Of a stretch of DNA of 52,749 bases, positions 18,585 to 40,276 are shown piece after piece. Source of the stretch: Desulfuromonadales bacterium (GTDB lineage: Bacteria; Desulfobacterota; Desulfuromonadia; Geobacterales; Pseudopelobacteraceae). Each line of letters begins with the position of its first letter. Within the stretch, counting starts at the first letter, position 1. The stretch is from assembly GCA_016650295.1 (NCBI GenBank), contig JAENWA010000106.1:1-52749 (forward strand), given 5' to 3'. Position numbers and translations under genes: made by a program. The notes beneath the pieces were generated by a model. It was not told the DNA's origin, searched no databases, and saw nothing but the letters and a program-made list of their open reading frames with translations.

Positions 18585-18617
18585 CATATATGACAGTTAT
18601 GTTAAACATGACGGATT
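18585..18617 (+). promoter_or_regulatory. Upstream activating motif, copy 1
   Basis: CATATATG at offset 1, ACAGTTATGTTA at 9-20, TGACGG at 25-30, then ATT. The same pattern lies before four other sigma-54 promoters. It starts 124 bp upstream of the -24 box at 18709, a normal distance for a bound enhancer-binding protein. The CATATATG core is itself palindromic. Confidence 0.75.
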
Positions 18618-18708
18618 CTGATGTTGACTTTCCCTTCATCCCGCCGGTCTCTCACCAATTTTACTTTTAATATCATACAGTTGCACTCTCAGATTCCGCA
18701 GGTTTCTC

Positions 18709-18723
18709 TGGCACGCTAGTTGC
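18709..18723 (+). promoter_or_regulatory. Sigma-54 promoter of the BON/CoADR operon
   Basis: TGGCACG-CTAG-TTGC followed by GA is a perfect -24/-12 match. The predicted start of transcription is near 18735, which gives a ~300-nt leader before the first clear gene at 19035. The leader (18735-19034) shows only a tiny frame, MRNQNLQ, at 18912-18935, behind a strong AGGAGG; whether it is translated is unknown. Confidence 0.8.
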
Positions 18724-19034
18724 GATTTACATTTTGGAGAACATGAGCACTGCTAAAACAGAGAGGGAGGCGGGTCATGTCTTAACGAGTTCCTGTGACC
18801 CAGGCTGCGGTTGCAGAATCCATCACAACCGGTATCCGAAAGGTATGATGCCTTCGAAGTAATAGGGTTCAAATCTGGTTGAGACGACACGTTAAAAGAC
18901 AGGAGGTGCGAATGAGGAATCAAAATTTACAATAACATTGGCGGCTGTTGAATAGAGCCATCAAGTGGCCGAGGACCTGAATCACATAAAGTTCAGGGAT
19001 TAATTTTAGCAGTTATCTAGAAAGGAGAAATAGT

Positions 19035-19226
19035 ATGCCATTAATTCAATTAGTAATAGTTTTGGTTGTTGTCGGACTGATTCTATGGGTGATTAACAGC
19101 TACATACCGATGCAGTCTACCATAAAGAGAATCTTGAATGTGGTAGTTGTTATCGTTGTGATTATATGGCTGTTGAGTGTCTTCGGACTCATAGGAAATC
19201 TCACATCGATTCGAATCGGGAAGTGA
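19035..19226 (+). CDS. Small membrane protein (Thivi_2564-like)
   Basis: A 63-residue protein of two hydrophobic segments (residues about 2-22 and 34-54) separated by YIPMQSTIKR. It matches the pattern of short Thivi_2564-family membrane proteins: a conserved LILWVINSYIPM stretch and a second Val/Ile-rich helix. AAGGAG lies 8 nt before the ATG. It is the first gene after the sigma-54 promoter at 18709 and is followed by a BON-domain protein, which suggests an envelope-stress role. No biochemical function is known. Confidence 0.8.
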   Translation: MPLIQLVIVLVVVGLILWVINSYIPMQSTIKRILNVVVVIVVIIWLLSVFGLIGNLTSIRIGK

Positions 19227-19385
19227 ATAGTCTGAAAATACTCTCGATTGGGTGAAGAGAGGGCACGTGTGTCTGTTGAACCAATTGAGCAGGCTTTTCT
19301 TTCTGTTATCTCTTGAAGTTACTTATCTAATTTGGAATCCAGGATGTTTTTTGTCACAACCAACAACACTAAAAGGAGAACGTGC

Positions 19386-20141
19386 ATGAAAGTACTATAT
19401 TCCATATCTCTCATGATGGCAGCGGCGGTTCTGATGGCTCTCAGCGTGCCTGTGCATGCGTCTACGATGGACGACCGCATTGAACTGTCTGCCAAGCAGT
19501 CGTATGTGTTCAAGACCTATCTTCAGGGTGATGATATCAAAATTCAGTCTAAAGATGGCGCTGTCACCTTGACGGGAACTGTCTCCGAAAATTCCCACAA
19601 ATCATTGGCCCACGAGACCATAGCAGGCCTTCCCGGTGTCAAGAGCGTGGACAACAAGCTGGAAATCAAAGGTGCGCCCCCCACTGCGAACTCGGATGCG
19701 TGGCTCCGTGATAAAGTGAAAGTCACACTCCTGTTTCATCGCAGCGTAAGCGCCGGCACAACCAGCGTTGATGTCAAAGACGGCATTGTGACCCTGCGAG
19801 GAGATGCTGCCAGTAAGGCTCAAAAGGACCTGACGACTGAATACGCCATGGAAGTCGAAGGGGTTAAAGGCGTAAAGAATGAGATGACCGTGACAAAGGC
19901 CCCGGAAAAGACGCGAACGGTAGGCGAAATTATTGATGACGCCTCCATAACCGCCCAAGTCAAAATGACGCTGCTCTATCACCGCTCGACCAGTGCCATT
20001 AATACCAAGGTCGAGACGAAGGGCGGCGCGGTCACATTGTATGGCAAGGCCAGAAGTGCAGCAGAATTGAGCCTGGCCACCAAACTCGCCAACGACGTAG
20101 ATGGCGTAAAGGAAGTAAATAACCGCATGACCATCGAGTAA
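19386..20141 (+). CDS. Periplasmic protein with three BON domains (OsmY-like), copy 1
   Basis: A 251-residue exported protein: signal peptide (MKVLYSISLMMAAAVLMALS...VHA) then three BON domains at about residues 30-95, 105-175 and 185-251. Each has a G-x-V-T-L-x-G turn (DGAVTLTGTV, DGIVTLRGDA, GGAVTLYGKA) and a GVKSV/GVKEV-N-x-hydrophobic end. BON domains are thought to hold proteins at membrane or lipid surfaces; OsmY is the osmotic and stress-induced example. AAGGAG before 19386 decides the start. A close paralogue lies at 29853-30611 behind an identical type of promoter. Only five bases separate it from the next gene. Confidence 0.9.
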   Translation: MKVLYSISLMMAAAVLMALSVPVHASTMDDRIELSAKQSYVFKTYLQGDDIKIQSKDGAVTLTGTVSENSHKSLAHETIAGLPGVKSVDNKLEIKGAPPTANSDAWLRDKVKVTLLFHRSVSAGTTSVDVKDGIVTLRGDAASKAQKDLTTEYAMEVEGVKGVKNEMTVTKAPEKTRTVGEIIDDASITAQVKMTLLYHRSTSAINTKVETKGGAVTLYGKARSAAELSLATKLANDVDGVKEVNNRMTIE

Positions 20142-20146
20142 ATATC

Positions 20147-21502: not shown

Positions 21503-21540
21503 CTGTTTTCTTTAAAATAGGAGTCAAGGGGATATCAGCC

Positions 21541-22521: not shown

Positions 22522-22527
22522 GGCGGG

Positions 22528-22573: not shown

Positions 22574-22600
22574 GAAATTATACAGTTTACCATGTCCCGC

Positions 22601-22633
22601 CATATATGCCGGTAATGCCAAAAATGACGGATT
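22601..22633 (+). promoter_or_regulatory. Upstream activating motif, copy 2
   Basis: CATATATG, CCGGTAATGCCA, then TGACGG at offset 25, then ATT. It starts 126 bp upstream of the -24 box at 22727. It differs from copy 1 mainly inside the middle block. Confidence 0.72.
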
Positions 22634-22726
22634 TCTCTGGTGGCTCCTCCTCCTCCCCCCAAATTCTTTTCCAATTATCCCATTAAAAATCAAATAGATC
22701 CGCCTGCGGTTTCCGCCGGCTTACTC

Positions 22727-22741
22727 TGGCACGCTAGTTGC
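22727..22741 (+). promoter_or_regulatory. Sigma-54 promoter of the Spy/CpxP-like operon
   Basis: TGGCACG-CTAG-TTGC, identical over all 15 bases to the promoter at 18709 and again followed by GAT. It lies 115 bp before the start at 22856. Confidence 0.82.
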
Positions 22742-22855
22742 GATATACCTTCCTGACTGAAAAAGAGCACTGGCGGTTTACTGATAGCAATCCAGCCTTG
22801 GCGTAAAGACAGCCGGAGAAAATAACAAAAATAAAAAATATGAGGAGAGTGTGAA

Positions 22856-23386
22856 ATGAAAACAAATTCTATCTGTAAAATTCTGGCAGTCGTATCCCTG
22901 TTGGCTCTCAGTGTGCCTGTGACCGCATTTTCAGAGATGAAGGGTATGCCCATGATGGAACATGGGGAAGGCCATGGCCATATGATGGACATGGGTAATA
23001 TGGACAAGATGGGCGATATGATGGGCATGTGTATTGAACATGCAGACAAGATGGGACTGAGCGATGCCCAGACCGCGAAAATGAAGCCGACACATCGCGA
23101 AATGCAAAAGAAACAGGTCCGGTTCAAGGCCGATCTGAAGATTGCAGAGATCGAATTGATGGAAATAATGGAAGTGAAAGATTTTGACCTGGAGAAGGCC
23201 GGTGCCGCGGTCAAAAAGATTGCAGAGATAAAAACCGCCCATCACCTGGAAATGTTGAAAGCCATGAAAGAAATGCGGGCAGTTTTGACTGACGAGCAGT
23301 TCAAGAACATGAAGAAGATGATGCCCATGAAGGATGACAAAAAGCCGGGCAAGCGAATGATGAAGAAACATGATAATCAGCACTAG
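22856..23386 (+). CDS. Met/His-rich periplasmic Spy/CpxP-like protein
   Basis: A 176-residue exported protein. The signal peptide ends near residue 25, then comes a Met/His-rich stretch (MPMMEHGEGHGHMMDM) able to bind copper or other soft metals. The rest is helical with two LTxxQ-type motifs (LSDAQTAKM, LTDEQFKNM), the mark of the Spy/CpxP/ZraP group, and a basic C-terminus. Members act as periplasmic chaperones or metal-stress proteins. The gene follows the sigma-54 promoter at 22727. Its stop codon TAG is the first three bases of the palindromic element at 23384. Confidence 0.8.
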   Translation: MKTNSICKILAVVSLLALSVPVTAFSEMKGMPMMEHGEGHGHMMDMGNMDKMGDMMGMCIEHADKMGLSDAQTAKMKPTHREMQKKQVRFKADLKIAEIELMEIMEVKDFDLEKAGAAVKKIAEIKTAHHLEMLKAMKEMRAVLTDEQFKNMKKMMPMKDDKKPGKRMMKKHDNQH

Positions 23387-23527
23387 TACCTTGTAACACT
23401 TATTTCTTCGTAGGCCGGATCAAACGAAGTGGATCCGGCATTGTTGCCATAGCCAGCACCATTGCCGGATGCGCTACGCTTCATCCGGCCTACATTATTA
23501 CGTAGTTTAAAGTGTTACACGGTACTA
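23384..23527. repeat. 144-bp nested palindromic element (REP/MITE-like)
   Basis: Outer arms TAGTACC-nnn-TAACACTT (left) and AAGTGTTA-nnn-GGTACTA (right) enclose inner arms GTAGGCCGGAT and ATCCGGCCTAC, with a further TGCCGGATGCGCTACGC block. The centre resembles enterobacterial REP consensus (GCCGGATGCGCTACGC...). It inserts exactly at the stop codon of the preceding gene and separates it from the gene at 23638. Confidence 0.75.
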
Positions 23528-23637
23528 GGATCGTAATTGAGTGGACACACCCCACCGCGCGAAGGCCGGGTGATCCGGCGCATCGCCTTCCCGGCGCTTG
23601 AATGCGCTTGCGAATTTAACCCATAAGGAGACAGATC

Positions 23638-24120
23638 ATGAAAAGAAAGTCTTATCAGGTTGCTTTTCCAGCTTCACTCGTTGTTGTATTGGTAGCGTTT
23701 CTATCCATTATCTTTTTAGCCAATGCAAATCCGTCGTTTGCTGCCTCAGCCAAGAAGAAAGCGCCGGCAGTTGCCAAAACCACGGCCGTCGAACATACCG
23801 AGGCCCGCATCAAAGAGCTTCAAGGCGCGCTGAAGATCACCGAGGACCAGGAACCGTTATGGAGTAACCTTACCCTTGTGATGCGGGATAATGCAAAAAA
23901 CATGGACGCCCTTACCAAGGACAGGCATGAAGCCACCAAAACCATGAACGCTGTCGATCGTATGAAATTCCACAGTCAAATTACCGAAGCCCGGTTAGAT
24001 CAACTCAAGAAGTTCATCCCGCCTTTCGAGGCGCTCTACGCCAGTTTGTCGGATGAACAGAAGAAGATTACCGATGCCATATTCCAGACGGGGAGACATG
24101 GAAAACACAAGATAAAATGA
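23638..24120 (+). CDS. Spy/CpxP-family LTxxQ protein
   Basis: A 160-residue exported helical protein. The N-terminal hydrophobic segment (about 10-35, ending NPSFAAS) could be a cleaved signal or an anchor. Two LTxxQ-like repeats are seen (LKITEDQEPLW and LSDEQKKITD), flanking a central helix. Role as for other periplasmic LTxxQ proteins: protein protection under envelope stress. AAGGAG lies 9 nt before the ATG. It follows the Met/His-rich paralogue, probably in the same sigma-54 transcript unless the palindromic element ends it. Confidence 0.78.
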   Translation: MKRKSYQVAFPASLVVVLVAFLSIIFLANANPSFAASAKKKAPAVAKTTAVEHTEARIKELQGALKITEDQEPLWSNLTLVMRDNAKNMDALTKDRHEATKTMNAVDRMKFHSQITEARLDQLKKFIPPFEALYASLSDEQKKITDAIFQTGRHGKHKIK

Positions 24121-27706: not shown

Positions 27707-29350
27707 TCAGCGACCTGCTTCGTCGCGCCACTCGACTGCGCCGAAGTGCGAGTCACCCACGAACGTATAGACCAGGCTTACGGTCCCGTCACGTTGATGT
27801 CTGCCGGGCTGACTACCATATTGCGAATCACGGATCGACTCTACGTATTGAAGCCCGAGACCGTGGCGACCGTAAACCCTGATATTGAAACCGGTCTTGA
27901 CGCGGACAATCGTCTCCGAGCCCCCTGCGCTATCGACAGGGTTGCTGCTGGTGCTGAGGCTGTTGAATTGGCCCGAGCCGGTGACATAGTAGCCGCGCGC
28001 ATCCAATTCAAGTGCGGCTCTGTGGCCAAAGAGCAGACGAAGGGCGAGCAGCGCCTGCGGGGCAACGCCGTAGTGGTAGTCCCGATCACCTTCCGAGACC
28101 GGGGTCGTCCCGGCAGCACCGAAGCCGACACCTCCCAGGAGAGAGCCCTGCAGCGCTATATCCGGTGACAACCAGTACTGCCCGGTCGTGCCAAGCGAGA
28201 TGGCCGTAGTTGAAACGCGGAATGCGGTTGGCGACAGGTAGTCGTAGCTTCCATAGAGTCCCCAGATGCCGCGATAATCATTTCCGGCATGATAATCCCT
28301 GCCGTACAGCAGTCCGCGCAAAAGGACGTTGCCAACTGGATTGTTCGCTCTGGCCTGGCCGCTTATCTCAAAGTCGAAGTAGTCCAGGGGACGCTTGTAG
28401 GTATAACCCGATTTCCCGGGCAGACCGTAGGACATGCCAAAGTCCAGGGTCGCATTCAGTTTGGCAAGGGTGTCGTAGCTGGAGCCGAGTTGAAAACGCC
28501 AGAAGGTGGCCGGATTGTGGCTGGGGAAAACGGTCTTGAACCGGTCGCCGAAGGCCAGACGGTTGACAGCGGTAGTTGGCGATACTATCGCCGCGCCGAG
28601 CTCGTGCCAGACATCGGGCTTGTCACCACCTCCCTCGAGCACCAGACCCGCCATCCGGAACAGCGCCTCGCCGAGAAGGCTGCCCGCGTTGCCGGTCGTG
28701 ATCTGGTCATTGATGGAGGGTGGATCGGTCTCGCCGGCCATCTTCCACAGGAAACTCCCCACATTGCTGTAGGCCAGCGACTCCCAGAAGTTGAGGCCGG
28801 AGGAGCGCGCCAATCCGTACATGGTTGCCCCCTGGTAGGGATGCGAAAACTGATTGATGTTGAAAGGATCCTGGTCGAAGACCCAGTTCTGTTTTCTCAG
28901 GTGATCCCAGGTGCTGGAAAAGGTTGAACTGTATACCTTTTTTCCGTCCTGGGTCTGGTCGGGATAGACAATCCGGTCGTAGACATTGAGCAGACCAAGA
29001 AACCCCGGCACCTCTAAGGCAGGGATAAGATAGCTTCTGTTGGCCCCGGTCTCCCAGGAGTGGACTTTTTTCGGCGCAATGCCAGCTTCTGTCGGTGCCG
29101 CGCCCGGTTCGGCCGAGTCAACGGCGTTGGGTTCCGGGTCCTTGTCGCGCCGCCAGTTGAATTTTGAGTCGTCAGCCTCGGGAGCTGTCGGCGGCGGAGA
29201 CTGCAGTTCGGGAGCAGGAATGATTTCCCGGGCAGTTTCAGCGGCGGACGCAGGCACTGCGCTACCTGTTCCGCTAATAATTGACAACAACATGGCAAAG
29301 GTCAGTAATCTGATCATGAGTCGTTGTGCCGGTCCGGGTATCTGGTACAT
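27707..29350 (-). CDS. DUF3943-like outer-membrane-associated protein
   Basis: A 547-residue exported protein. The signal peptide ends about ASA, then comes a Pro/Glu-rich linker (to about 100) and the conserved region (NPFNINQFSHPYQGATMYGLARSSG in pieces: DPFNINQFSHPY, GATMYGLARSSGLNFWESL, then GSLLGEALFRMAG). This agrees with DUF3943 proteins, usually paired with a PAP2 enzyme. The C-terminal half has strand-like segments typical of a barrel (LGLQYVESIRDSQYG). GGAGG lies 4 nt before the ATG at 29350. It is preceded by a ~130-nt leader starting with a 13-bp hairpin and by the minus-strand sigma-54 promoter at 29492-29506. The PAP2 gene follows. Confidence 0.8.
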   Translation of the reverse strand: MYQIPGPAQRLMIRLLTFAMLLSIISGTGSAVPASAAETAREIIPAPELQSPPPTAPEADDSKFNWRRDKDPEPNAVDSAEPGAAPTEAGIAPKKVHSWETGANRSYLIPALEVPGFLGLLNVYDRIVYPDQTQDGKKVYSSTFSSTWDHLRKQNWVFDQDPFNINQFSHPYQGATMYGLARSSGLNFWESLAYSNVGSFLWKMAGETDPPSINDQITTGNAGSLLGEALFRMAGLVLEGGGDKPDVWHELGAAIVSPTTAVNRLAFGDRFKTVFPSHNPATFWRFQLGSSYDTLAKLNATLDFGMSYGLPGKSGYTYKRPLDYFDFEISGQARANNPVGNVLLRGLLYGRDYHAGNDYRGIWGLYGSYDYLSPTAFRVSTTAISLGTTGQYWLSPDIALQGSLLGGVGFGAAGTTPVSEGDRDYHYGVAPQALLALRLLFGHRAALELDARGYYVTGSGQFNSLSTSSNPVDSAGGSETIVRVKTGFNIRVYGRHGLGLQYVESIRDSQYGSQPGRHQRDGTVSLVYTFVGDSHFGAVEWRDEAGR

Positions 29351-29491: not shown

Positions 29492-29506
29492 GCAACTAGC
29501 GCACCA
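29492..29506 (-). promoter_or_regulatory. Sigma-54 promoter of the DUF3943-PAP2 operon
   Basis: On the minus strand TGGTGCG-CTAG-TTGC has correct GG/GC spacing and shares the CTAGTTGC block with the promoters at 18709 and 22727. The -24 side differs at two bases (TGGTGCG). It lies 127 bp from the left half of the palindromic activator site. Confidence 0.65.
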
Positions 29507-29600
29507 AAGAATATCCTAGGATGCTGCAAGCGTAAGGATCTGATTGTACATGGTAAAATAGAATCAAATGGTCCGGAGTCAAGGGGGAAACTGTCCACCG

Positions 29601-29658
29601 CATGCGTCACATATAACATAACTGCCATATATGACAGTTATGTTATGCGTGACGGTTT
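29601..29658. promoter_or_regulatory. Palindromic activating site shared by two divergent sigma-54 promoters
   Basis: Around the central CATATATG (29626-29633), the right arm reads ACAGTTATGTTA then TGACGG, and the left arm, on the minus strand, reads GCAGTTATGTTA then TGACGC. This makes a 58-bp inverted repeat with two full motif copies sharing one core. The right copy starts 126 bp before the plus promoter at 29752; the left copy starts 127 bp before the minus promoter at 29506. Copies 1, 2 and 4 elsewhere have a strong right arm only. Confidence 0.78.
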
Positions 29659-29751
29659 AATCTGATGCCTTTCACCTCGCTCCGCAGATCCTCTTTCCGT
29701 ATTACCCAGTACAATCAGCCTGTTGAACTCACTGTGTCCTGAGGGCCTCTC

Positions 29752-29766
29752 CGGCACGTTAGTTGC
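29752..29766 (+). promoter_or_regulatory. Sigma-54 promoter of the second BON gene
   Basis: CGGCACG-TTAG-TTGC followed by GA: the GG/GC doublets are 12 bp apart; only the first base departs from the TGGCACG consensus. It lies 87 bp before the ATG at 29853. Confidence 0.75.
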
Positions 29767-29852: not shown

Positions 29853-30611
29853 ATGAAAGCACTACATTCAATACCTGTAATAATGGCGGCAGTGGTTCTA
29901 CTGGCGTTCATCGTACCTGTCCACGCTTCACAGACGGACAGCCGCATTGAATCATCCGCCAGGCAGTCTTATGTGTTCCAGACCTACCTTCAGGCTGATA
30001 ATATCAAAATCCGGTCAAGTGACGGTGCCGTCACCCTGACAGGCATCGTTTTAGAAAACTTCCATAAATCGTTGGCCCAGGAGACAGTAGCCGGCCTCCC
30101 CGGCGTCAAGAGTGTGGACAACAGGCTGGTAATAAAAGGCGCCGCCCCCACTGTAAACTCGGATGCCTGGCTTCGTGATAAAGTGAAAGTCGCGCTCCTG
30201 TTTCATTCGAGCGTCAGCTCAGCAACATCCGAGGTTACCGTAAAAGACGGCATCATAACCGTGCGGGGAAATGCCGCCACTCAGGCGCAAAAGGAATTGA
30301 CAACCGAATATGCCAAGGATGTCGATGGGGTCAAAGACGTCAAAAACGAGATGACCGTGTCTATGACTTCAAAAAAAGCACCCCGAACAGTCGGTGAAAA
30401 GATCGATGACGCTTCCATCAGCGCCCAGGTCAATATGACGCTGCTGAACCATCGTTCGACGAGTGCCATCAACACCACGGTCAAGACAAACCGCGGCATT
30501 GTCACGGTGGGTGGCAAGGCCGGCACTATCGCTGAAAAGAATCTGGTCACCAGGCTTGTCCGAGATATACACGGTGTAACGAGTGTAACGAACAGCATGA
30601 CCATCGAATAA
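29853..30611 (+). CDS. Periplasmic protein with three BON domains (OsmY-like), copy 2
   Basis: A 252-residue paralogue of the protein at 19386-20141, alignable over the whole length: QSYVFQTYLQADNIKIRS versus QSYVFKTYLQGDDIKIQS, and SDAWLRDKVKVALLFHSSVS versus SDAWLRDKVKVTLLFHRSVS. Signal peptide (ends VHA), then three BON domains with DGAVTLTGIV, DGIITVRGNA and RGIVTVGGKA turns. AGGAG lies 7 nt before the ATG. It is the first gene after the sigma-54 promoter at 29752, so both paralogues share one regulatory signal. The duplicated promoters and genes suggest operon duplication. Confidence 0.9.
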   Translation: MKALHSIPVIMAAVVLLAFIVPVHASQTDSRIESSARQSYVFQTYLQADNIKIRSSDGAVTLTGIVLENFHKSLAQETVAGLPGVKSVDNRLVIKGAAPTVNSDAWLRDKVKVALLFHSSVSSATSEVTVKDGIITVRGNAATQAQKELTTEYAKDVDGVKDVKNEMTVSMTSKKAPRTVGEKIDDASISAQVNMTLLNHRSTSAINTTVKTNRGIVTVGGKAGTIAEKNLVTRLVRDIHGVTSVTNSMTIE

Positions 30612-30767: not shown

Positions 30768-33700
30768 GTGGACGTTGGCATTCTAATCGGTTACTTCGCA
30801 CAACAAGATGAAGCCCGCAAAGCACTCCTGAAACTCGCGCGGCAAGGTTTCCGCCGCACCGCACTGCTGCATAAGGATACGGCCGGAACTGTTCATATTA
30901 CTTACCCATCCCTCGTGCGCCGCTCCCTCGGGATAATCCTGGCTGCCATCCTGTCCGGGGGGATTGGCGGCAGTGCCGCCCTGTCCCTGAACTGGCCGAA
31001 GCTGCTGCCACTCTGGAACATATCCACCGCATTGTCGGTGTCCCTGGCATGTGCCGCAATCGGCGCCCTGGCAACGTCACTCTGGCTGCGTCACTTCAGA
31101 TACGGCGTCAAGCCGGGGGTCCTGCACGATCACGCCCGCTGGCTCGCGTCCGGGGAAACGGTCCTGCTTCTTCAGGCAACTGTTGAATTGTTACAGCATC
31201 CGGTGGCCATGCTGCGGGAAAGCGGCGATCCGCCTCCGGCGCTGTTCATCATGTATCCCAGGCGCGAGCGACGGACCGAGACACGAGCCCCCGAGGCAAA
31301 GCTTTCACCGGCACAGATTCAGGAGCATGCCCGGCGCCATGCCACAGAGCAGCGGGTGGACCCGAGGCATCAACACACTACCGAATTGCTTAAACGCCTC
31401 AAACAGTCCCGCCAATGGGTCCATCAGGTCTGCGCGGATCTCACCGTTGCCAGCCGCCTGGAGCAGAAAGCCACACCGGCCGCCGACTGGATACTGGATA
31501 ACGAGTACATTCTGGAGGGGAACGCCCGCGATGTCCTGCGGAATCTTCCCCGGCGCTTTTACCGGCAACTGCCCACACTGGCCTCTGATCCCTACCGGGG
31601 GCTGCCCTGCATCTACGCGCTGGCCAAGGATCTCGTCACCCATACGGAACTGCAACTGGAGCGGGAGAATATTCAGGCGTTTATCGAGGCCCACCAATTC
31701 GTCCGCACATTGACGATCGGCGAACTCTGGGCAATACCCCAGATGCTGCGCATCGCGCTTATCGAAAGTATCCAGAGTCTGGCCGTCACCGCACTGGCAG
31801 ACCTGCGCGAACGCCAGTTGGCTGAATTCTGGGCCAACCGCCTGATCGCCGCCAATCGCCGCGATTCCAACCAGCTCTTCGCCATTCTGGCGGAACTCGC
31901 CAAAACGGAGCCGGTTCCCACTCCCTATTTCGCTGTGCAGCTGGTCGGCCTGCTCTACGACGAGGAGGCCGCATCGGCGCCGGTTCAGAGCTGGCTTGAG
32001 CGCACGCTCAAAACCCCTCTGATTGAGATCACTCTGAGTGAACAGAACCGGCAGACCAGGGAACAGTTGTCCTGCGGCAATGCCTTTACCAGCCTGCGCC
32101 AGCTGGCCCTGCTGGACTGGCGGGAGATTTTCGAGCAGCTCAACCGGGTGGAGCAGGTCTTGCGCCGTGATCCGTCCGGGATTTATGGCAGGATGGATTT
32201 TGCAACCCGTGACCGCTGCCGTCAGGCGATTGAAGAACTCGCCCGCGCTGCCGACCAGAGCGAGGAGCGGGTCGCGGAGCGTGTTATCACGCTGGCACAG
32301 CAGGCCGGGCGTGAAGCAACCGGTGATGAACGACGCGGCCACGTCGGCGCCTGGCTGGTGGGGCAGGGGCGGGCTGAACTGGCCCGACTGCTGGCATGCC
32401 GGGAAAAGCTCCGCTACCGTACCCTGGAATGGATCTATCGTCATCACGAAGTTGTCTATGCCGCCGGCGTTGGCGGGTTCACGGCTTTGTTTTTATTACT
32501 GGCCGGATACGTCGAATCGGTCCGATCAGTCGGATTAATCGGATTTATCGGATTTATCGGACTTGCACTGCTACTGCTGATTCCGGTCAGTCAGCTGGCG
32601 ATCGAGGTACTCAACTATCTGGTCACACGGTTTTTGCCGCCCCGTCCCCTGCCCAAGATGGATTTTGAGGATGTGGGGATTCCCGATGCCTTCCGCACCC
32701 TGGTGGTCGTGCCGATGATGCTGGTGAATGCGGAGACGGTACGGGGCGAGGTGGAGAAACTGGAGATCCGCTACCTGGCCAACAAGGAAAACAATCTGCT
32801 CTTCAGCCTGTTCACGGACTATACCGATTCTGCCACACGTACCCATGAAGACGACAAGCTGCTGCTCCAGAGCGCCATTGAATGCCTGACCGAACTCAAT
32901 CAGCGCCATCACGGCGAGCGTTTTTTCCTGTTCCATCGGGAGCGAACATGGAGTGAATCCGAGCAGAAATTCATCGGCTGGGAGCGCAAACGGGGCAAGC
33001 TGGAGGAGTTGAACAGGCTGATTGAGGGCACGCGGCCTGAAACTGAAGAACGCCTGCTCTACGTGGGCGATCCGGGTCATCTTACAGACATCCGCTTCAT
33101 TATCACCCTGGACAGCGACACGCAGCTGCCCCACGGCACGGCCCGCAGGATGGTCGAGACCCTGGCGCACCCCCTCAATCAGCCCCGTTTCGATGGGGCC
33201 GGCAACATCATGGCCGGCTCCTACACCATCATCCAGCCGCGGGTGAGCCCGACCCTGCCGAGCACGAACGCCTCGATCTTCAGCCGGCTTTTCAGCGATG
33301 CGGTCGGCATCGACCCCTATACCCAGGCGGTCTCGGATGTGTATCAGGACCTGAGTGGTGAAGGATCGTACCATGGCAAGGGGATCTACGACGTACGCGC
33401 CTTCAGCCGCGTGTTGTCGGGCAGGTTCCCGGAAGAGTGGATCTTGAGCCACGACCTGATCGAAGGGGCTCATGTCCGGGTGGGGCTGGCCAGTGATATC
33501 GAGCTCTACGATGAATTCCCGCAAGGGTACCAGAGTTACAGCAGCCGGGCCCATCGCTGGATTCGCGGCGACTGGCAGATTGCCGGGTGGATTTTTCCCC
33601 GCGTTCCGCAGGCATTAGGCGGTCGCGGGGCCAACCCGCTCACCCTGCTCAGTCGCTGGAAGATCCTTGACAACTTGCGCCGCAGCCTTTTGCCTGCCAC

Positions 33701-36700
33701 GAGCCTGGCCCTGCTGATGGCCTCCTGGTTTATTTCACCGAGAATCGGCGGGATCGCCACGCTGGTGGTCGGCATGCAGCTGCTCTTTCACCCCCTGGCG
33801 CAGCCCTTTACCATGGCAACCACCCGCAAGGGATTAAAGTTCTTCTCCCCGACCAAGCTGTTGCATGATCTGTTGCGGGCGACCGCCGACGCCGCCCTTC
33901 TGCCGCACCAGGCAGCGGTGGCCCTGGACGCCATTGCCCGGGTCTGGTACCGCCGCCTGATCTCCCGGCGCGACCTGCTTGAATGGACGGCCCAGGCCAC
34001 CCATTGGAGCGCTTCCCGCCGGCAGCCGCTCTTCGTAGCAAGCCTGGCCCTGGGAAGCCTCTTCAGTATCGTTACGGGCTGTGCAATCCTGCTCAGCCTG
34101 CCGTCCAGCCTGCCGCAGGCCGCTCCCTGGCTTTGTTTGTGGTTTTTCTCCCCGCTGCTGGCCTGGCTGCTGAATCTGCGACCGTCCGGGCAGCAGGTTC
34201 AACCGCTGGCGGAAACGGACCGCCGCTTCCTCAGGCAGGTAGCCCGGCGCACCTGGCGCTATTTCTCGACCTTTGTCAACGCCGATACCTCCTGGCTGCC
34301 CCCCGATAACTACCAGCTCGCCCACCAGAATCGTCTGGCCATGCGAACCAGTCCGACCAACATCGGCCTCTGGATGACGGGCGTCCTGGGAGCCCATGAT
34401 TGCGGCTACCTGACGGTTGATCAGGTCGTCGAGAAACTGACCTTCAGTATGGAGAGCATCAGCCGTCTGGAACGCCATCAGGGGCATCTCCTGAACTGGT
34501 ACGATATCCGGAGACTGGTTCCGCTGGAACCGCGCTATGTCTCCACCGTTGACAGCGGCAACCTGCTGGGCGCCCTGTGGGCACTGGAGCAGGGGCTTGA
34601 CGAGCTGCTGCATGCCCCGCTCCTGGATGACACGACCTTTGCCGGTCTGGCGGACCTCGGAGAAATCCTGAAACAGGCCGCCGTCTTGGAAGGAATTACC
34701 TGTCTGTATCGCCAGCCTCTCAACCAGCTTCTGGCAGAGTGGCAGGCCCCGTTGTCCGGGATCGTCGACCTCCTTCGACTGCAGCGCCGGATGGCGATAA
34801 ACGTCAGGTCTGTTGTTGTCGCAGCGGGCGCCACACCCTGGGGCGCAGAGTTGGAACAGCAGGTTTCGGCCTGGGTTCACAACAGCGACCGTTATCTCAC
34901 CTGGATCGAGATCCTGGCGGAAAAAACCGAAGCAGAGCTGGTCCTGTTCGGGCCGGAAGTCCTGCTCGCCATCCGTCGGGACCTGTCCAGGGCGCCATCG
35001 CTCTTCGATCTTGCCCATGACCGGATCGGATCGATCCGGATACTTCAAACATTCCGCGAGGAGTCCCCCCAAATGGTTGCCACGCTCGGGCAGTGGCTCG
35101 ACCGGCTAATGGAGGCCTTCGCCGCTGCCAAGTGGCTGGCCGGTGAAACCCTGGGGATGACCCAGCGGCTGATCGGCAATGTCCGTGAGCTGTCGGACGG
35201 GATGAACATGCGCTTTCTCTATGACCCCAAGCGCAAGTTGTTCGCCATCGGCTACAACGTTTCCTCGGGTCGTCTGGACATTTCAAGTTACGATCTGCTG
35301 GCCAGTGAGGCGCGTCTGGGAAGTTTCGTCGCCATTGCCCGGGGAGACGTACCCCTGGAACACTGGTTTTCCCTGGGTCGCCCCTACGGCGCCATCGGCC
35401 GGCAGCGGGTTCTGCTCAGCTGGACCGGAACCATGTTCGAATATCTGATGCCGCTCCTGTTCCAGTGTACCTACGGCAACTCACTCCTGGACAAGGCGTC
35501 CCGCGAAGCGGTAACGGTCCAGATCGCCTATGGCCGCAAGCGGCATGTGCCATGGGGTATTTCCGAGTGCGCATATGGCAATCTGGACCTGGAAAAAACC
35601 TATCAATACAAGGCCTTCGGCGTACCGGCGCTCGGTTTGAAGCGCGGCCTGGAGGAACAGCTGGTCGTGGCTCCCTATGCCACCCTGCTGGCGCTGAACG
35701 TGGCGCCCGGCGAGACCGTCAAGAATCTGAAACAACTGGACAGGCTGGGGCTTTTGGCTGATTACGGCTATTACGAGGCCATGGATTTCAGTCGTCACCC
35801 ACAGCGTGTGGGGAGACGCGGGGTGATTATCGAGGCCTATATGGCCCATCACCAGGGCATGGCGTTTCTGGCGTTGACCAACTTTCTCCATGGTAACCCG
35901 TTCCCGCGCCGTTTCCATAGCGATCCACGGGTACGCGCCTTCGAGGCCCTGCTTCAGGAGCGCATCCCGACCCTGCCGCCGTTGCACCTGATCTCGACCC
36001 GGCCGAGTGAGCCGACGCTGCCGGGAGAAGACCGGGTGGCGCCGGCAGGAATCACCTTTACCACTCCCCACACTGCCACACCCAGGAGTCTCTTGCTCAG
36101 CAACGGCCGCTATGGCCTGATGATTACCAACAGCGGTGGCGGTTACAGTCAGTGGGGCGGGCAGGAACTTACCCGCTGGCGGTCGGACCAGACCTGTGAC
36201 AGCCAGGGGATTTTCTGCTACATCCACGAGTCCGATTCGGATCGGGTCTGGTCCAACACCTGGCACCCGGTCGGTGGAAAGGTAAAAAGGTATTCCGTTC
36301 ATTTTGCCCTCGACCGGGCCGTGTTCCGCCGCGGCGATTACGGAGTTCAGACGGAAACAGAGGTGGTTGTATCGCCGGAAGATGATGTGGAGGTGCGCCG
36401 GATTACCCTGATCAATCGTTCCTCCCGTTCCCGGTGCCTCAACCTGACCAGCTACGTTGAGCTATCCATGGCGCCCCACAACGCGGACCGCCAGCACCCG
36501 GCCTTCAACAAGCTGTTCATCCAGACCGAGGCGGTCCCGGAGCAGCAGGCGCTGCTCGCCTATCGGCGACCACGGAGTGAAAGCGAACTTCCGTTGTTTG
36601 TGGCCCACTGCCTGACACTAGAGCATTCGGACAAGTCAGACAAGTCGGACCGGTCCGACCAGTCAGACAATGCAACCTTCCAGTTTGAAACCGACCGCAG

Positions 36701-39700
36701 CCGCTTCATCGGCCGCGGCCGGACCCTGGCCAACCCCATGGGAGCCGTGCAGGAACTCGGCAACAGTCAGGGTTTTGTCCTTGATCCGATACTGGCCACG
36801 CGGCGAAGTCTGGTCCTGGAGCCGGGTCAGCGCGCCCAGCTTTCTCTGGTGCTGGCTGCCGGGGCATCCCGTGAGCAGGTCCTGTTGCTGATAGACAAAT
36901 ACTGCGACCTCCACGCAACCGAGCGGGCCTTGGATTTTGCTTGGGGTGCGGCCCAGCAGCAGTTGCAACTGCTGCACATCCAGCCTGATGAGGCGCGTCG
37001 TTTTCAGCAACTGGCAAGTCACCTGCTGTTTCCCAATCAGCTGCTGCGAGCACCGGCCGAACGCCTGGATGACAACCGTAAGGGGCAGGCGGGATTGTGG
37101 CCCTACGCCATTTCGGGCGACCTGCCGCTGATCCTGATCACCATAGGCGAGGTGCGGGAGATCGGCCTGATCCGCCAGATGCTCCAGGCCCACACCTATT
37201 GGCGGATACATGGATTGTCCACTGACCTGGTGATCCTTAACGAGGAGGCCGGCAGCTATGAGCGGCCGCTCCAGGAAAAACTGGAACAGCTGGTCCAGGC
37301 CCATACGGTCTCTGCGGCCACTGATCGGGCGGGCGGGATCTTCCTGAAGAGCTCGGCGCAGATCCCGGGGGAGGATCTGAATCTCCTCAAGGCCGCAGCC
37401 AGCGTCGTTCTGGTGGCGTCACGCGGCACACTGGCCCAGCAATTGGGGGTACCGGTAGAAGCGCCCGAACTGCTGGAGAGGCTGGTTCGAAAACGCGCCC
37501 CCCGGGAGCCATCGGCCCCGCTCCCTTTCATGGAGCTGAACTACTTCAACAGCCTGGGCGGATTTACACATGATGGACGCGAATACGTGATCTATCTCGG
37601 TCCGGGCACCAATACCCCGGCGCCTTGGGTGAATGTCATTGCCAACTCGACCTTCGGCACTATGGTCAGTGAAACCGGGTCCGGTTTTACCTGGTTTGGC
37701 AACAGCCAGCGTAATCGTCTGACCGGCTGGTCCAACGATCCGGTGCTGGACCCGGCCTCTGAAGCGCTCTATATCCGCGACGAGGAGAGCGGTCTCTTCT
37801 GGTCGCCGACCGCAACGCCGATCCGTGAGGAAACCGCCTATCGGGCCCGGCACGGGGCCGGCTTTACTGTCTTCGAGCATAACAGTAACGGCATCGAGCA
37901 GGAGCTGACTGTCTTCGTCCCGGTGGATGGCAGCGGAGGCAGTCCGATCAAACTGCAGCGCCTGAGGCTGACCAATGCCTCCGCCAGAAAGCGCCGTCTC
38001 TCGGTCACCTATTATGTGGAACTCACGCTTGGAGAGAACCGTGAAACCTCCCAGATGCATATCAACACCACATGGGACGACGAATCCCGTGCCCTCTTGG
38101 CGTATAACCGCTATCACCCCGAGTATGGAGAGCGGGTTACCTTCGTTGCCATAACCCCCACGGCCGACTCATTCGGCGGCGACCGCAGCGCCTTCATCGG
38201 ACGCAACCGCACGCTGGCCAACCCGGCAGCCATGGAGTTGACCCGGCTGTCACAACGGAGCGGAGCAGGGCTGGACCCGTGCGGGGTACTCCGGGTTACG
38301 CTGCAGATGGCTCCCGGCGAACAACGTGATATCACCTGTATGCTGGGACAGGCCGGTTCCGTGGCTGAAGCCCGGAAGCTGGTGCTCGGCTATCGCTTGG
38401 ATCGGGCATTTGAGGACGAGTTTGACCGGACCAGGGCTTGGTGGGATGAGATACTCGGAACAATCGAGGTGCATACCCCCGACCTGTCCGCCGACCTGCT
38501 GATCAACCGCTGGCTTCAGTACCAGTCCCTGAGCTGCCGCATCTGGGGGCGCTCCGCATTTTATCAGTCAGGCGGCGCCTTCGGTTTTCGCGACCAGTTG
38601 CAGGATGTCATGGCGTTCCTTTACTCCAGGCCGGAACTGGCACGCGACCAGATCCTGCTGGCCGCCGGCCGGCAGTTCAAGGAGGGGGATGTCCAGCATT
38701 GGTGGCATCCGCCAAGCGGCGCCGGTATCCGCTCGCGTATCTCCGACGACCTGCTCTGGCTCCCCTGCGTAGTCGCTCACTACGTCCGGACGACCGGCGA
38801 TGTGGATATCCTGCAGGCAGAGATACCCTTTCTCAATGCCCCGCTGTTGGCGTACGATCAGCATGAGCTGTTTTCCATGCCGGAGGTCACCTTTGAACGC
38901 GCCACTCTCTTTGAACACTGCCAGCGCACGGTGGAGTGCGGCCTGACGATCGGACCCCATGGTCTGCCATTGATCGGGACGGGGGACTGGAACGACGGAA
39001 TGAACCTGGTGGGCGCCGAGGGCAAGGGTGAGAGCGTCTGGCTGGCCTGGTTCCTCTGCACAGTGTTGCAGGGGATGGCTGAACTGTCGAGTCTGTTGAA
39101 ACAGCCGGAGCTGGAACGAACCTATCTAAATGACCGCTATGCCCTGATCCAGCGTGTCGAAAAGGCCGGTTGGGACGGAGAGTGGTATCTGCGCGGAACC
39201 TTCGATGATGGCTCACCCCTCGGTTCCGCAGCAAATAATGAGGCGCGGATCGATTCCCTGCCCCAGTCGTGGGCCTGGCTTTCCGGCGCAGCCGACCCGG
39301 CACGGGCGGAGCAGGCACTGGAATCGGCCTGGCAGCACCTCGTCCTCAAAGATGAAGGTCTGGTGCTGCTCTTTGAGCCCCCCTTCGACACATCGGAACC
39401 CTCTCCCGGCTACATCAAGGGTTATCCCCCCGGGGTGCGGGAGAACGGCGGCCAGTATACCCACGCCGCCCTCTGGATGGCCATGGCCATGGCCCGCAAG
39501 GGTGACGGGGAACGGGCGGTGCAGCTCTTGCGCATGCTCAACCCGATCGAGCATGCCCGCGATGCGGCGGCGGTCTGGCACTACGGGGTCGAACCCTACG
39601 TGGTCGCAGCCGACGTGTACCGGTTACCCGGCCGGACAGGCCGGGGCGGCTGGTCCTGGTATACCGGTTCGGCGTCCTGGATGTACCGGGCTTGGGTTGA

Positions 39701-39971
39701 AGAGGTCCTCGGCCTGCGGATACAGGGCGGACAGCTGCGAATTGATCCGGTCATCCCCGCATCGTGGCCGGGCTTCAGCATCACCTATCGGCACGCTGAA
39801 ACAGTTTACGCGATCCAGGTGGAGAATCCGGACGGCTTCCAGCGTGGAGTCGCCTGGGTGTTGATGGATGGCCGGCGCGTAACCGGTGGCGCCATTTCCC
39901 TGGAACAGGGCCTGGTCAAGCACCAGGTTGTGGTGAGGATGGGGAGGCCTGAAGAGGCCGGTGTCGAGTGA
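30768..39971 (+). CDS. ndvB: Cyclic beta-1,2-glucan synthase
   Basis: A 3067-residue inner-membrane enzyme, slightly longer than the usual ~2800-2870. It makes and cyclises beta-1,2-glucan for the periplasm. Order: short N-terminal domain and two helices (about 52-110); large cytosolic region; helices near 570-615; GT84 glycosyltransferase with the DSD motif in ITLDSDTQLPHG (about 781), LSHDLIEGAHVRVG and RAHRWIRGDW; helices to about 1140; glycoamylase-like domain (PPDNYQLAHQNRLAMRTSP); two GH94 N-terminal sugar-binding repeats (SNGRYGLMITNSGGGYSQWG; NSTFGTMVSETGSGFTWFG); and the GH94 phosphorylase barrel with IGTGDWNDGMN (near 2739). Start is GTG with AAAGGA upstream. Two 9-nt tandem-repeat blocks sit in frame (32517-32561, 36627-36671). 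Cyclic glucans act in low-osmolarity adaptation, which suits the stress context. Confidence 0.93.
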   Translation: MDVGILIGYFAQQDEARKALLKLARQGFRRTALLHKDTAGTVHITYPSLVRRSLGIILAAILSGGIGGSAALSLNWPKLLPLWNISTALSVSLACAAIGALATSLWLRHFRYGVKPGVLHDHARWLASGETVLLLQATVELLQHPVAMLRESGDPPPALFIMYPRRERRTETRAPEAKLSPAQIQEHARRHATEQRVDPRHQHTTELLKRLKQSRQWVHQVCADLTVASRLEQKATPAADWILDNEYILEGNARDVLRNLPRRFYRQLPTLASDPYRGLPCIYALAKDLVTHTELQLERENIQAFIEAHQFVRTLTIGELWAIPQMLRIALIESIQSLAVTALADLRERQLAEFWANRLIAANRRDSNQLFAILAELAKTEPVPTPYFAVQLVGLLYDEEAASAPVQSWLERTLKTPLIEITLSEQNRQTREQLSCGNAFTSLRQLALLDWREIFEQLNRVEQVLRRDPSGIYGRMDFATRDRCRQAIEELARAADQSEERVAERVITLAQQAGREATGDERRGHVGAWLVGQGRAELARLLACREKLRYRTLEWIYRHHEVVYAAGVGGFTALFLLLAGYVESVRSVGLIGFIGFIGLALLLLIPVSQLAIEVLNYLVTRFLPPRPLPKMDFEDVGIPDAFRTLVVVPMMLVNAETVRGEVEKLEIRYLANKENNLLFSLFTDYTDSATRTHEDDKLLLQSAIECLTELNQRHHGERFFLFHRERTWSESEQKFIGWERKRGKLEELNRLIEGTRPETEERLLYVGDPGHLTDIRFIITLDSDTQLPHGTARRMVETLAHPLNQPRFDGAGNIMAGSYTIIQPRVSPTLPSTNASIFSRLFSDAVGIDPYTQAVSDVYQDLSGEGSYHGKGIYDVRAFSRVLSGRFPEEWILSHDLIEGAHVRVGLASDIELYDEFPQGYQSYSSRAHRWIRGDWQIAGWIFPRVPQALGGRGANPLTLLSRWKILDNLRRSLLPATSLALLMASWFISPRIGGIATLVVGMQLLFHPLAQPFTMATTRKGLKFFSPTKLLHDLLRATADAALLPHQAAVALDAIARVWYRRLISRRDLLEWTAQATHWSASRRQPLFVASLALGSLFSIVTGCAILLSLPSSLPQAAPWLCLWFFSPLLAWLLNLRPSGQQVQPLAETDRRFLRQVARRTWRYFSTFVNADTSWLPPDNYQLAHQNRLAMRTSPTNIGLWMTGVLGAHDCGYLTVDQVVEKLTFSMESISRLERHQGHLLNWYDIRRLVPLEPRYVSTVDSGNLLGALWALEQGLDELLHAPLLDDTTFAGLADLGEILKQAAVLEGITCLYRQPLNQLLAEWQAPLSGIVDLLRLQRRMAINVRSVVVAAGATPWGAELEQQVSAWVHNSDRYLTWIEILAEKTEAELVLFGPEVLLAIRRDLSRAPSLFDLAHDRIGSIRILQTFREESPQMVATLGQWLDRLMEAFAAAKWLAGETLGMTQRLIGNVRELSDGMNMRFLYDPKRKLFAIGYNVSSGRLDISSYDLLASEARLGSFVAIARGDVPLEHWFSLGRPYGAIGRQRVLLSWTGTMFEYLMPLLFQCTYGNSLLDKASREAVTVQIAYGRKRHVPWGISECAYGNLDLEKTYQYKAFGVPALGLKRGLEEQLVVAPYATLLALNVAPGETVKNLKQLDRLGLLADYGYYEAMDFSRHPQRVGRRGVIIEAYMAHHQGMAFLALTNFLHGNPFPRRFHSDPRVRAFEALLQERIPTLPPLHLISTRPSEPTLPGEDRVAPAGITFTTPHTATPRSLLLSNGRYGLMITNSGGGYSQWGGQELTRWRSDQTCDSQGIFCYIHESDSDRVWSNTWHPVGGKVKRYSVHFALDRAVFRRGDYGVQTETEVVVSPEDDVEVRRITLINRSSRSRCLNLTSYVELSMAPHNADRQHPAFNKLFIQTEAVPEQQALLAYRRPRSESELPLFVAHCLTLEHSDKSDKSDRSDQSDNATFQFETDRSRFIGRGRTLANPMGAVQELGNSQGFVLDPILATRRSLVLEPGQRAQLSLVLAAGASREQVLLLIDKYCDLHATERALDFAWGAAQQQLQLLHIQPDEARRFQQLASHLLFPNQLLRAPAERLDDNRKGQAGLWPYAISGDLPLILITIGEVREIGLIRQMLQAHTYWRIHGLSTDLVILNEEAGSYERPLQEKLEQLVQAHTVSAATDRAGGIFLKSSAQIPGEDLNLLKAAASVVLVASRGTLAQQLGVPVEAPELLERLVRKRAPREPSAPLPFMELNYFNSLGGFTHDGREYVIYLGPGTNTPAPWVNVIANSTFGTMVSETGSGFTWFGNSQRNRLTGWSNDPVLDPASEALYIRDEESGLFWSPTATPIREETAYRARHGAGFTVFEHNSNGIEQELTVFVPVDGSGGSPIKLQRLRLTNASARKRRLSVTYYVELTLGENRETSQMHINTTWDDESRALLAYNRYHPEYGERVTFVAITPTADSFGGDRSAFIGRNRTLANPAAMELTRLSQRSGAGLDPCGVLRVTLQMAPGEQRDITCMLGQAGSVAEARKLVLGYRLDRAFEDEFDRTRAWWDEILGTIEVHTPDLSADLLINRWLQYQSLSCRIWGRSAFYQSGGAFGFRDQLQDVMAFLYSRPELARDQILLAAGRQFKEGDVQHWWHPPSGAGIRSRISDDLLWLPCVVAHYVRTTGDVDILQAEIPFLNAPLLAYDQHELFSMPEVTFERATLFEHCQRTVECGLTIGPHGLPLIGTGDWNDGMNLVGAEGKGESVWLAWFLCTVLQGMAELSSLLKQPELERTYLNDRYALIQRVEKAGWDGEWYLRGTFDDGSPLGSAANNEARIDSLPQSWAWLSGAADPARAEQALESAWQHLVLKDEGLVLLFEPPFDTSEPSPGYIKGYPPGVRENGGQYTHAALWMAMAMARKGDGERAVQLLRMLNPIEHARDAAAVWHYGVEPYVVAADVYRLPGRTGRGGWSWYTGSASWMYRAWVEEVLGLRIQGGQLRIDPVIPASWPGFSITYRHAETVYAIQVENPDGFQRGVAWVLMDGRRVTGGAISLEQGLVKHQVVVRMGRPEEAGVE
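32517..32561 (+). repeat. Five 9-nt tandem repeats in ndvB (block 1)
   Basis: Units TCGGTCCGA, TCAGTCGGA, TTAATCGGA, TTTATCGGA, TTTATCGGA. They are read as part of a membrane helix (GLIGFIGFIG). The reverse complement of the unit (TCCGACTGA type) matches the style of block 2, so the two blocks look like opposite orientations of the same repeat family. Confidence 0.75.
36627..36671 (+). repeat. Five 9-nt tandem repeats in ndvB (block 2)
   Basis: Units TCGGACAAG, TCAGACAAG, TCGGACCGG, TCCGACCAG, TCAGACAAT, read as SDKSDKSDRSDQSDN near residue 1955. This is a hydrophilic linker between conserved GH94 segments, hence tolerable. Confidence 0.8.
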
Positions 39972-40006
39972 AATCTTCTTACAGCTCTTAACCTTTAAAC
40001 GGAAGT

Positions 40007-40084
40007 TTAACCGCAGAGGACGCAGAGGAAACCAAAAATAACAGCCTGTTTTTCCTCTGCGATCCTCTGCGTACTCTGCGGTAA
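40007..40084. repeat. Intergenic hairpin repeat after ndvB
   Basis: TTAACCGCAGAGGACGCAGAGGA on the left is answered by TCCTCTGCG...TCTGCGGTAA on the right, with a second CTCTGCG copy inside, followed by TTTTTATT. It may also act as the ndvB terminator. CGCAGAGG-type repeats of this kind recur between genes in many bacteria. Confidence 0.65.
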
Positions 40085-40136
40085 CTGTTTTTATTAGGCT
40101 AATTATGTTTGTCCGCTTGTTGTACGTAAACCCGCT

Positions 40137-40169
40137 ATATATGGCGGTTATGTCAAACCTGACGGATTA
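40137..40169 (+). promoter_or_regulatory. Upstream activating motif, copy 4
   Basis: TATATATG, GCGGTTATGTCA, then TGACGG at offset 25, then ATT; starts 125 bp before the -24 box at 40262. The left side (ACGTAAACCCGC) is a degenerate inverted copy of GCGGTTATGT, so a partial palindrome is present here too. Confidence 0.72.
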
Positions 40170-40261
40170 AGCAGACGGTTTTCCCTTCAGCGTGCCTCTC
40201 CATCTTAAATTTAACCTGCCATTTCAGGTCATTACATCCTCAATACCCGCAGATATTCTCC

Positions 40262-40276
40262 GGCACGTTAGTTGCG
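40262..40276 (+). promoter_or_regulatory. Sigma-54 promoter of the lipoprotein/CsbD operon
   Basis: CGGCACG-TTAG-TTGC followed by GA, identical to the promoter at 29752 over 15 bases. The predicted transcript starts near 40288, ahead of the 52-residue lipoprotein gene at 40425. Confidence 0.75.

Follow-up and report, generated by a model that had tools for sequence, protein, structure and literature searches.

The 52,749-nt contig JAENWA010000106.1 of a Desulfuromonadales bacterium is the entire contig C106 of its source genome (G000, 4.07 Mb in 123 contigs), and this whole stretch of DNA is called the window below. It carries five −24/−12 promoters of the type used by sigma-54 polymerase (GG-N10-GC, present at all five sites), each preceded at a nearly constant distance by the same conserved block, and the genes downstream include two for triple-BON proteins, two for Spy/CpxP-like proteins and one for a CsbD protein (Table 1). 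We consider it very probable that these are five promoters of a sigma-54 regulon with a stress-type core, run by one clade of bacterial enhancer-binding proteins (bEBPs) through the block, a bend made by integration host factor (IHF) and the promoter. A −24/−12 promoter requires a bEBP: it stays silent until such a protein, bound upstream, reaches it through a DNA loop and spends ATP.

An initial annotation of this DNA had described the five promoters and their upstream motifs, and all were found again on re-inspection of the window. The GG of the −24 box follows the motif start by 125, 127, 127 and 126 bp at the rightward sites, in order, and by 128 bp at the leftward one; the 124–127 bp given earlier reflect slightly different reference bases. 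A site matching at least eight of nine IHF consensus positions stands at its usual place in four of the five; for the promoter at 22728 there is no good match at that distance, the best (7/9) lying elsewhere, at 22673. The two divergent promoters have one CATATATG palindrome in common, with the remaining modules on opposite flanks (29590–29669). Neither the 63-aa peptide encoded downstream of the 18710 promoter nor the 52-aa lipoprotein-like peptide downstream of the 40262 promoter has a match in Pfam.

Table 1. Sites, promoters and genes of the regulon in the window (UAS, upstream activating sequence, an enhancer-type site; numbers for IHF-type sites are matching consensus positions)
Feature	Position	Strand	Basis	Remarks
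UAS 1	18582–18628	+	motif match	motif start 18585; CATATATG palindrome module, GTTATG and TGACGG modules
IHF-type site	18671–18683	+	8/9	
−24/−12 promoter GGCACGCTAGTTGC	18710–18723	+		GG at 18710; predicted start ~18734; downstream: 63-aa peptide, triple-BON protein, Pyr_redox_2 enzyme
Triple-BON protein	19386–20138	+	Pfam	target of 18710 promoter
UAS 2	22598–22644	+	motif match	motif start 22601
−24/−12 promoter	22728–22741	+		GG at 22728; predicted start ~22752; downstream: two LTXXQ (Spy/CpxP-like) proteins
Two LTXXQ proteins	22856–24117	+		targets; 22856–23383 (under Pfam cut-off) and 23638–24117
DUF3943 protein	27710–29350	−	Pfam	target of leftward promoter
−24/−12 promoter GGTGCGCTAGTTGC	29492–29505	−		GG at 29505; predicted start ~29481; downstream: DUF3943, PAP2, K+ transporter genes
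IHF-type site	29533–29545	−	9/9	
UAS of leftward promoter	29590–29636	−	motif match	motif start 29633; palindrome 29626–29633 in common with UAS 3
UAS 3, rightward	29623–29669	+	motif match	motif start 29626
IHF-type site	29713–29725	+	9/9	
−24/−12 promoter	29753–29766	+		GG at 29753; predicted start ~29777; downstream: triple-BON protein
Triple-BON protein	29853–30608	+	Pfam	target of 29753 promoter
UAS 4	40133–40179	+	motif match	motif start 40136
IHF-type site	40222–40234	+	8/9	
−24/−12 promoter	40262–40275	+		GG at 40262; predicted start ~40286; downstream: 52-aa lipoprotein-like peptide, CsbD
CsbD protein	40736–40912	+	Pfam	target of 40262 promoter
PAS histidine kinase gene	41224–42681	+		3' of CsbD

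Block, bend site and promoter

The layout recurs well beyond the window. Among 149 distinct sites, from loci mostly chosen for matching the motif, 139 have a promoter (score of at least 18 of 21, with GG 115–138 bp after the motif start), compared with 6 of 149 in shuffled sequence searched over a wider range. The motif is thus not scattered without promoters, a pattern that the initial annotation had named as one that would speak against a regulon. Spacing from motif start to GG averages 126.7 bp over the 139 sites (standard deviation 1.98); it is 123–129 bp in 134 of them, and the remaining five, at 117, 118, 134, 135 and 137 bp, are about one helical turn off. Half of the ten promoterless sites have a box at 125–128 bp that scores 17, one step below the threshold (L081, L091, L105, L128 and L199). 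At L186 the only box (score 18) lies at 215 bp, and at C36, C95, L093 and L165 no promoter box was found in the usual range.

Alignment of the 139 sites shows a conserved block, CCGTCATATATGGCAGTTATGTTAAACATGACGGATT, from −3 to about +43 of the motif. The TGACGG reported earlier at positions 25–30 is present, and the block is longer than was then described: its two modules, the palindrome CYGYCATATATGRCRG and the imperfect one CAGTTATGTTAAACATGACGG, are followed by a third TGACGG at 38–43, and the IHF-type site is an additional part of the layout. A single perfect palindrome was considered as the binding site and set aside; two modules plus a third TGACGG describe the block better. Positions 0/9 and −2/11 show no clear compensation and so favour no particular dimer arrangement. 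The promoter core is GGCACG-YTAG-TTGC, in which the spacer YTAG is conserved too; to our knowledge, a conserved spacer is unusual for −24/−12 boxes.

Between block and promoter lies the IHF-type site. Of the 139 sites, 58 match the consensus WATCARNNNNTTR, taken from PMC7962754, at all nine positions (shuffle mean 0.55; one on the other strand) and 110 match it at eight or more (shuffle mean 9.15; seven on the other strand). In 107 of the 110 the match begins 39–41 bp before GG, and a T tract lies about 10 bp upstream of it.

In its own genome the motif is far from a chance pattern, as had been claimed from the constant distances: CATATATGNCNGTTATGTNANNNNTGACGG with up to three mismatches occurs 21 times in 4.07 Mb, and its reversed control not at all. 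The promoter string GGCACGYTAGTTGC, with at most one mismatch, also occurs 21 times, against two for its control, and 20 of these places have a block (up to four mismatches) 125–135 bp upstream, the exception being C98:47674–47687. Degenerate sites, reached by way of the promoter string or seen in the stretches examined, raise the number located in this genome to 27 (up to four mismatches); a strong promoter stands in range of 25. The regulon of five promoters first proposed was therefore an undercount, although all five are real.

A clade of activators linked to the sites

The genome encodes a single rpoN gene (Sigma54_DBD, E 2.7e-64), and a scan for the sigma-54 interaction domain gives 32 matches. 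Among the bEBP genes, four have a near-identical AAA+ domain and helix-turn-helix (HTH): those on C65 and C120 and those on C9 and C107, of which the latter two run off their contigs. Contig C65 additionally holds the start of a further gene of the receiver type, again cut by the contig end. The complete C65 product comprises PAS, a coiled coil (read from the sequence), AAA+ and HTH_8, and the C120 product and the cut C65 product begin with a receiver domain. PF00158, AAA_lid_14 and HTH_8 score above cut-off in the three full-length members scanned, and the clade's loop reads GAFTGS, a variant of GAFTGA. In a tree of 54 bEBP domains the 28 clade members are monophyletic (support 100/99). Their recognition helix, LN[AP]STLRARMRK, is exact in 19 of 28 rows and one or two residues off in most others; four sister proteins read LKPTTL or MKPTTL there. 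We also observed that contigs C9, C65 and C107 all end inside clade genes, probably because the assembler could not resolve the near-identical AAA+ domains.

Two kinds of evidence, co-occurrence and neighbourhood, tie this clade to the motif. Among 57 relatives (clade HTH of at least 74 bits; motif with up to three mismatches), both are present in 20, the clade only in 6, the motif only in 5 and neither in 26. Across 277 genomes of the class (motif with up to two mismatches; clade at E ≤ 1e-14) the corresponding counts are 57, 30, 10 and 180, and in the 220 genomes that remain without the first 57 they are 39, 22, 6 and 153. Fisher p values are 4e-6, 1e-26 and 3e-21, respectively, and serve as a guide only, since the genomes are related and the values overstate independence.

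The initial annotation had proposed looking for a bEBP gene with the same site upstream. Such a linkage exists, with the difference that the site mostly lies just downstream of the bEBP gene. On C9 and C107 a site follows the end of the HTH match after 245 and 53 bp, respectively; a motif lies on the same strand within 1 kb downstream of 13 of 42 clade HTH places, and within 1 kb downstream of at least 13 of a further 98. When the best clade locus of each genome is taken, 12 of 26 have a block (at least 18 of 23 positions) and promoter just downstream, as do 0 of 4 sister, non-clade loci.

For a held-out comparison, 19 of the 30 clade-only genomes, in which no motif is present at two mismatches, supplied 20 stretches that lie downstream of clade genes; eight of the other clade-only genomes are in the best-locus comparison, and G206, G262 and G267 are outside both. 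Contig ends shorten the stretches of G128, G134 and G153. A combined profile (block, IHF region, promoter), built from the 139 sites, some of which stand beside other clade genes, gives 14 of 20 loci scores of 43.7–95.2 at a spacing of 124–128 bp, where the maximum among 500 random sequences is −6.3. In the same test none of 25 other bEBP loci has a candidate site, these controls coming from the own genome and the held-out loci from other genomes. The sigma-54 and bEBP reading of the initial annotation is thus supported both by the promoters and by a specific group of activators: the clade is the likely regulator of the motif sites, which it is predicted to bind.

Members of the clade differ in their sensors. 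A gene for a CheB-CheR-PAS fusion directly adjoins a PAS-type bEBP gene in four genomes: on C65 of the own genome (L106, 3468–6095 and 6149–7975) and in the relatives G008, G020 and G025 (L114, L109 and L119, that of G025 cut by the stretch end). In G054 such a fusion gene lies near a PAS-type bEBP gene, in G052 a PAS_10 piece lies near, and in G013 a CheB-only gene follows. The other three of the nine relatives' loci comprise a receiver-type gene with a hybrid histidine kinase upstream (G036), a second G013 gene beside a KaiC-type ATPase, and a G002 gene with neither. The adjacency of CheB-CheR-PAS and bEBP genes suggests input by reversible methylation, and the PAS histidine kinase encoded in the window may be the kinase of a receiver-type member. 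In G036 we also noted a 76-aa protein with a Fis-type HTH match only, encoded under a regulon site (L079 1084–1311, minus strand), which could compete with the activators for the site.

Target genes, mechanism and alternatives

In the own genome, first and second genes behind the sites match the Pfam families BON, CsbD, LTXXQ, DUF3943, PAP2/VTT, Cu/Zn superoxide dismutase (SOD), DUF5670, DUF3309, DUF4398/OmpA, PRC-barrel, PPK2, amino oxidase and CHRD, and several have no Pfam match. All five CsbD genes above the Pfam cut-off are under sites (a sixth, weak match on C94 is outside this count), as are four of the five BON genes, the exception being on C58. Several of the families CsbD, BON, Cu/Zn SOD, PPK2, DUF3309 and DUF5670 are stress-linked elsewhere. 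A survey of relatives (139 sites less 25 from the own genome and 14 without a usable gene) gave 100 first genes that match 75 families, among them DUF3309 (5), CsbD (5), BON (4), response regulators (4), OMP_b-brl (4), HTH_8 (4) and sigma-54 activators (Sigma54_activat, 3). The regulon consists of a stress-like core and a wide fringe, with some regulators of its own kind among the targets. The coherent envelope and osmotic stress set proposed earlier holds as far as this core goes; its 'envelope/osmotic' label is based on gene families alone.

The regulon is patchy within its class, with the motif in 67 of 277 genomes, and its sites are often clustered, as in G020, where eight lie within 34 kb. 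Named genomes with the exact pattern contribute 44 stretches, 34 of them titled Desulfuromonadales, Desulfuromonadaceae, Geobacteraceae, Geobacter, Geomesophilobacter or Oryzomonas; the other titles are Deltaproteobacteria (7), Proteobacteria (2) and Lachnospiraceae (1). Among the records with sites is that of Geomesophilobacter sediminis, a cultivable relative. We treat the match in the last, a metagenome-assembled genome (L165), as chance: there is no promoter at the right distance (score 14 at 166).

From the layout, its fixed geometry, the linkage to the clade and the target families, we infer binding by the clade, IHF bending, activation and induction by stress. A clade bEBP, with a PAS or receiver domain, coiled coil, AAA+ and Fis-type HTH, would bind the block; IHF would bend the DNA at its site between block and promoter, and so bring the bound activator onto sigma-54 polymerase at the promoter core about 127 bp downstream, where ATP hydrolysis would open the promoter. 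The anatomy of block, bend site and promoter in fixed phase fits each step of sigma-54 activation. As the paralogs combine different sensors with nearly one DNA-reading helix, several inputs could reach one target set, which would include CsbD, BON, DUF3309, DUF5670, Spy/LTXXQ, Cu/Zn SOD, OmpA/DUF4398 and PPK2, among others.

Several observations weigh against this account, besides the relatedness of the genomes behind the p values. Two of the 27 own-genome sites, C36 (a perfect motif) and C95, have no promoter. The helix of the own C120 protein, LKASTLRYKIQK, differs by five residues, the largest deviation seen, and this paralog may read another site. The clade occurs without the motif, at two mismatches, in 30 of 277 genomes, and the motif without the clade in 10, five of which are at least 97% complete; the other five are 52–88% complete. 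No clear block lies just downstream of 14 of the 26 best clade loci, and 6 of the 20 held-out loci have no site (G082, G132, G134, G191, G216 and G261). The held-out sites of G159 and G241 are about 1.1 kb away, and that of G070 has an IHF region scoring below zero. Finally, most first target genes of the relatives lie outside the classic stress families, as the small shares of CsbD, DUF3309 and BON given above illustrate.

Genomes with the motif and without the clade are what one would expect if the block were read by some other, unlinked transcription factor and the bEBPs were merely frequent neighbours or targets; Sigma54_activat proteins are themselves targets in 3 of the 100 first genes, such that the neighbourhood could reflect autoregulation. 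We find this very unlikely, because a −24/−12 promoter needs a bEBP, because of all bEBPs tested this clade alone shows linkage to the site (held-out loci as opposed to other and sister loci), because of the co-occurrence over the class, and because half of the motif-only genomes are incomplete. Clustering and patchy spread could also be taken to mean that a mobile or repeated element bearing a promoter gave rise to the sites, which would then have been spread by copying and not kept by selection. We give that idea hardly any credence, although no search aimed at transposases or terminal repeats was made: conservation is focused on block, T tract, IHF columns and promoter, and extends across a class, and in the window one palindrome serves two divergent promoters.

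A different question is what the regulon is for. It could be a genuine bEBP regulon for remodelling of the envelope or surface and not for general stress, to which the targets OmpA/DUF4398, OMP_b-brl, LTXXQ, PAP2 and DUF3943 and two PEP-CTERM proteins in relatives would be suited. This is a possibility, if a rather unlikely one, in view of the CsbD and BON genes gathered under the sites together with Cu/Zn SOD, PPK2, DUF3309 and DUF5670; as it keeps the same mechanism and changes the trigger alone, it overlaps with the stress regulon that we prefer.

For the study of stress survival in Desulfuromonadia, to which the metal-reducing relatives of Geobacter belong, that preferred regulon, if correct, provides a candidate regulator clade, a precise predicted binding site and a list of targets. 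One switch for all five CsbD genes above the cut-off and for four BON genes out of five in this genome offers a route to the function of proteins whose role is unclear. Additionally, the rigid 127-bp geometry, with its strays of about one turn over 139 sites, is a data set for the phasing of enhancer, IHF bend and sigma-54 promoter, and several activators that apparently read one site with different sensors would make a clean case for signal integration at sigma-54 promoters.

A side observation concerns C36, where 7099–7128 (minus strand) is a perfect copy of the block with no −24/−12 box at the usual distance; it may be the remnant of a decayed promoter or have another role.

Known systems and transcript leaders

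The nearest relative in kind is the PrsK/PrsR sigma-54 regulon of PEP-CTERM proteins, where, in the part of PMC1569441 available to us, a motif and a −24/−12 promoter stand upstream of many genes and a Fis-family bEBP was found by matching phylogenetic profiles. The stretch between its motifs is short and loose (32–92 nt, s.d. 10.6 nt; same part of PMC1569441), whereas here motif start and GG are about 127 bp apart with an s.d. of 1.98, and the targets are not the same. Clade proteins are not PrsR: they score 313.5, 346.7 and 300.4 bits (the last a cut protein) against a TIGR02915 cut-off of 502.6. Nor are they FhlA, the formate hydrogenlyase activator, although over AAA+ and HTH of the PAS-type member no NCBIfam model scores higher than that of FhlA, NF011958 (404.1 bits); scores of 404.1, 398.3 and 353 bits (cut protein) fall short of the cut-off of 830, and FhlA has another sensor domain and other targets.

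Sigma-54 regulons of Desulfovibrio vulgaris, as far as the accessible text of PMC4641369 and PMC3333781 goes, have many bEBP genes beside the promoters that they activate, some bEBPs with a common motif and, in DVU3305, a general-stress regulator, and so a stress-linked sigma-54 regulon exists there. The majority of those regulons comprise 1–4 operons, compared with about 25 sites here. The DVU3305 targets, as described there, are set apart as membrane and hypothetical proteins, some of UspA type, and a Lon-type regulator; the words BON and CsbD are absent from the main texts of both papers as available to us. Geobacter sulfurreducens, a related bacterium, likewise has −24/−12 promoters upstream of many genes in its RpoN regulon, and the accessible main text of PMC2725144 covers metabolism, nitrogen, flagella and pili; in it BON, CsbD, osmotic and CATATATG are absent and stress appears twice.

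Where sigma-S, sigma-B or EcfG directs the general stress response, CsbD, BON/OsmY-type proteins, SOD and small membrane stress proteins are under one switch. Those responses use an alternative factor of the sigma-70 class, whereas the present system would use sigma-54 with ATP-driven activators. As a sigma-54/bEBP regulon the present one is large, its geometry is unusually fixed and its target core is of a stress type. We found no description of it in the open-access literature searched; the supplementary multicopy lists of two Geobacter genome papers, outside that search, may hold related entries.

Many target messages also have a conserved 30-nt imperfect inverted repeat, approximately GCAGAACATGAGCACTGTCGTGCTTTCTGC, at their extreme 5' end, starting at about +2 to +6. 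Examples are C55:871 and C46:6245 in the own genome, and the window has partial copies at about 18738 and 22760. With a profile built from seven own leaders, 29 of 113 leaders of relatives score above the 99% shuffle threshold (1.1 expected), all at positions within five bases of each other, compared with four matches in a control stretch about 80–140 nt in. The sequence element is thus supported, and we rejected its reading as a structured RNA, for which covariation gives no support to pairing. RNAalifold predicted no pair in 26 leaders picked by eye from 138, and in two hand-drawn hairpins the pair counts were not above those of shuffles, though above slid versions in the cells paired. Mean minimum free energy over positions 0–45 is only slightly lower than in shuffled leaders (−7.31 versus −6.74; standard deviation of the means 0.19). 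The Streptococcus YjbJ RNA motif, judged from the part of PMC11109978 available to us, was considered and rejected.

Taken together with these leaders, the regulon tentatively points to a wider picture that we think possible, though on balance doubtful: that in Desulfuromonadia sigma-54, in place of a dedicated stress sigma factor, runs the general stress response. The duplicated bEBPs, alike in their DNA-reading helix and exchangeable in their sensors (PAS, receiver), would then be parallel inputs to a rigid module of enhancer, IHF site and promoter, methylation through CheB-CheR-PAS may set the response, and the 30-nt 5' element would add a second layer.

Among other features, the window and five loci gave one tRNA as the only Rfam match at the gathering threshold. 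Directly 3' of the second triple-BON gene, a single open frame of 3067 aa runs from 30768 to 39971 on the plus strand.

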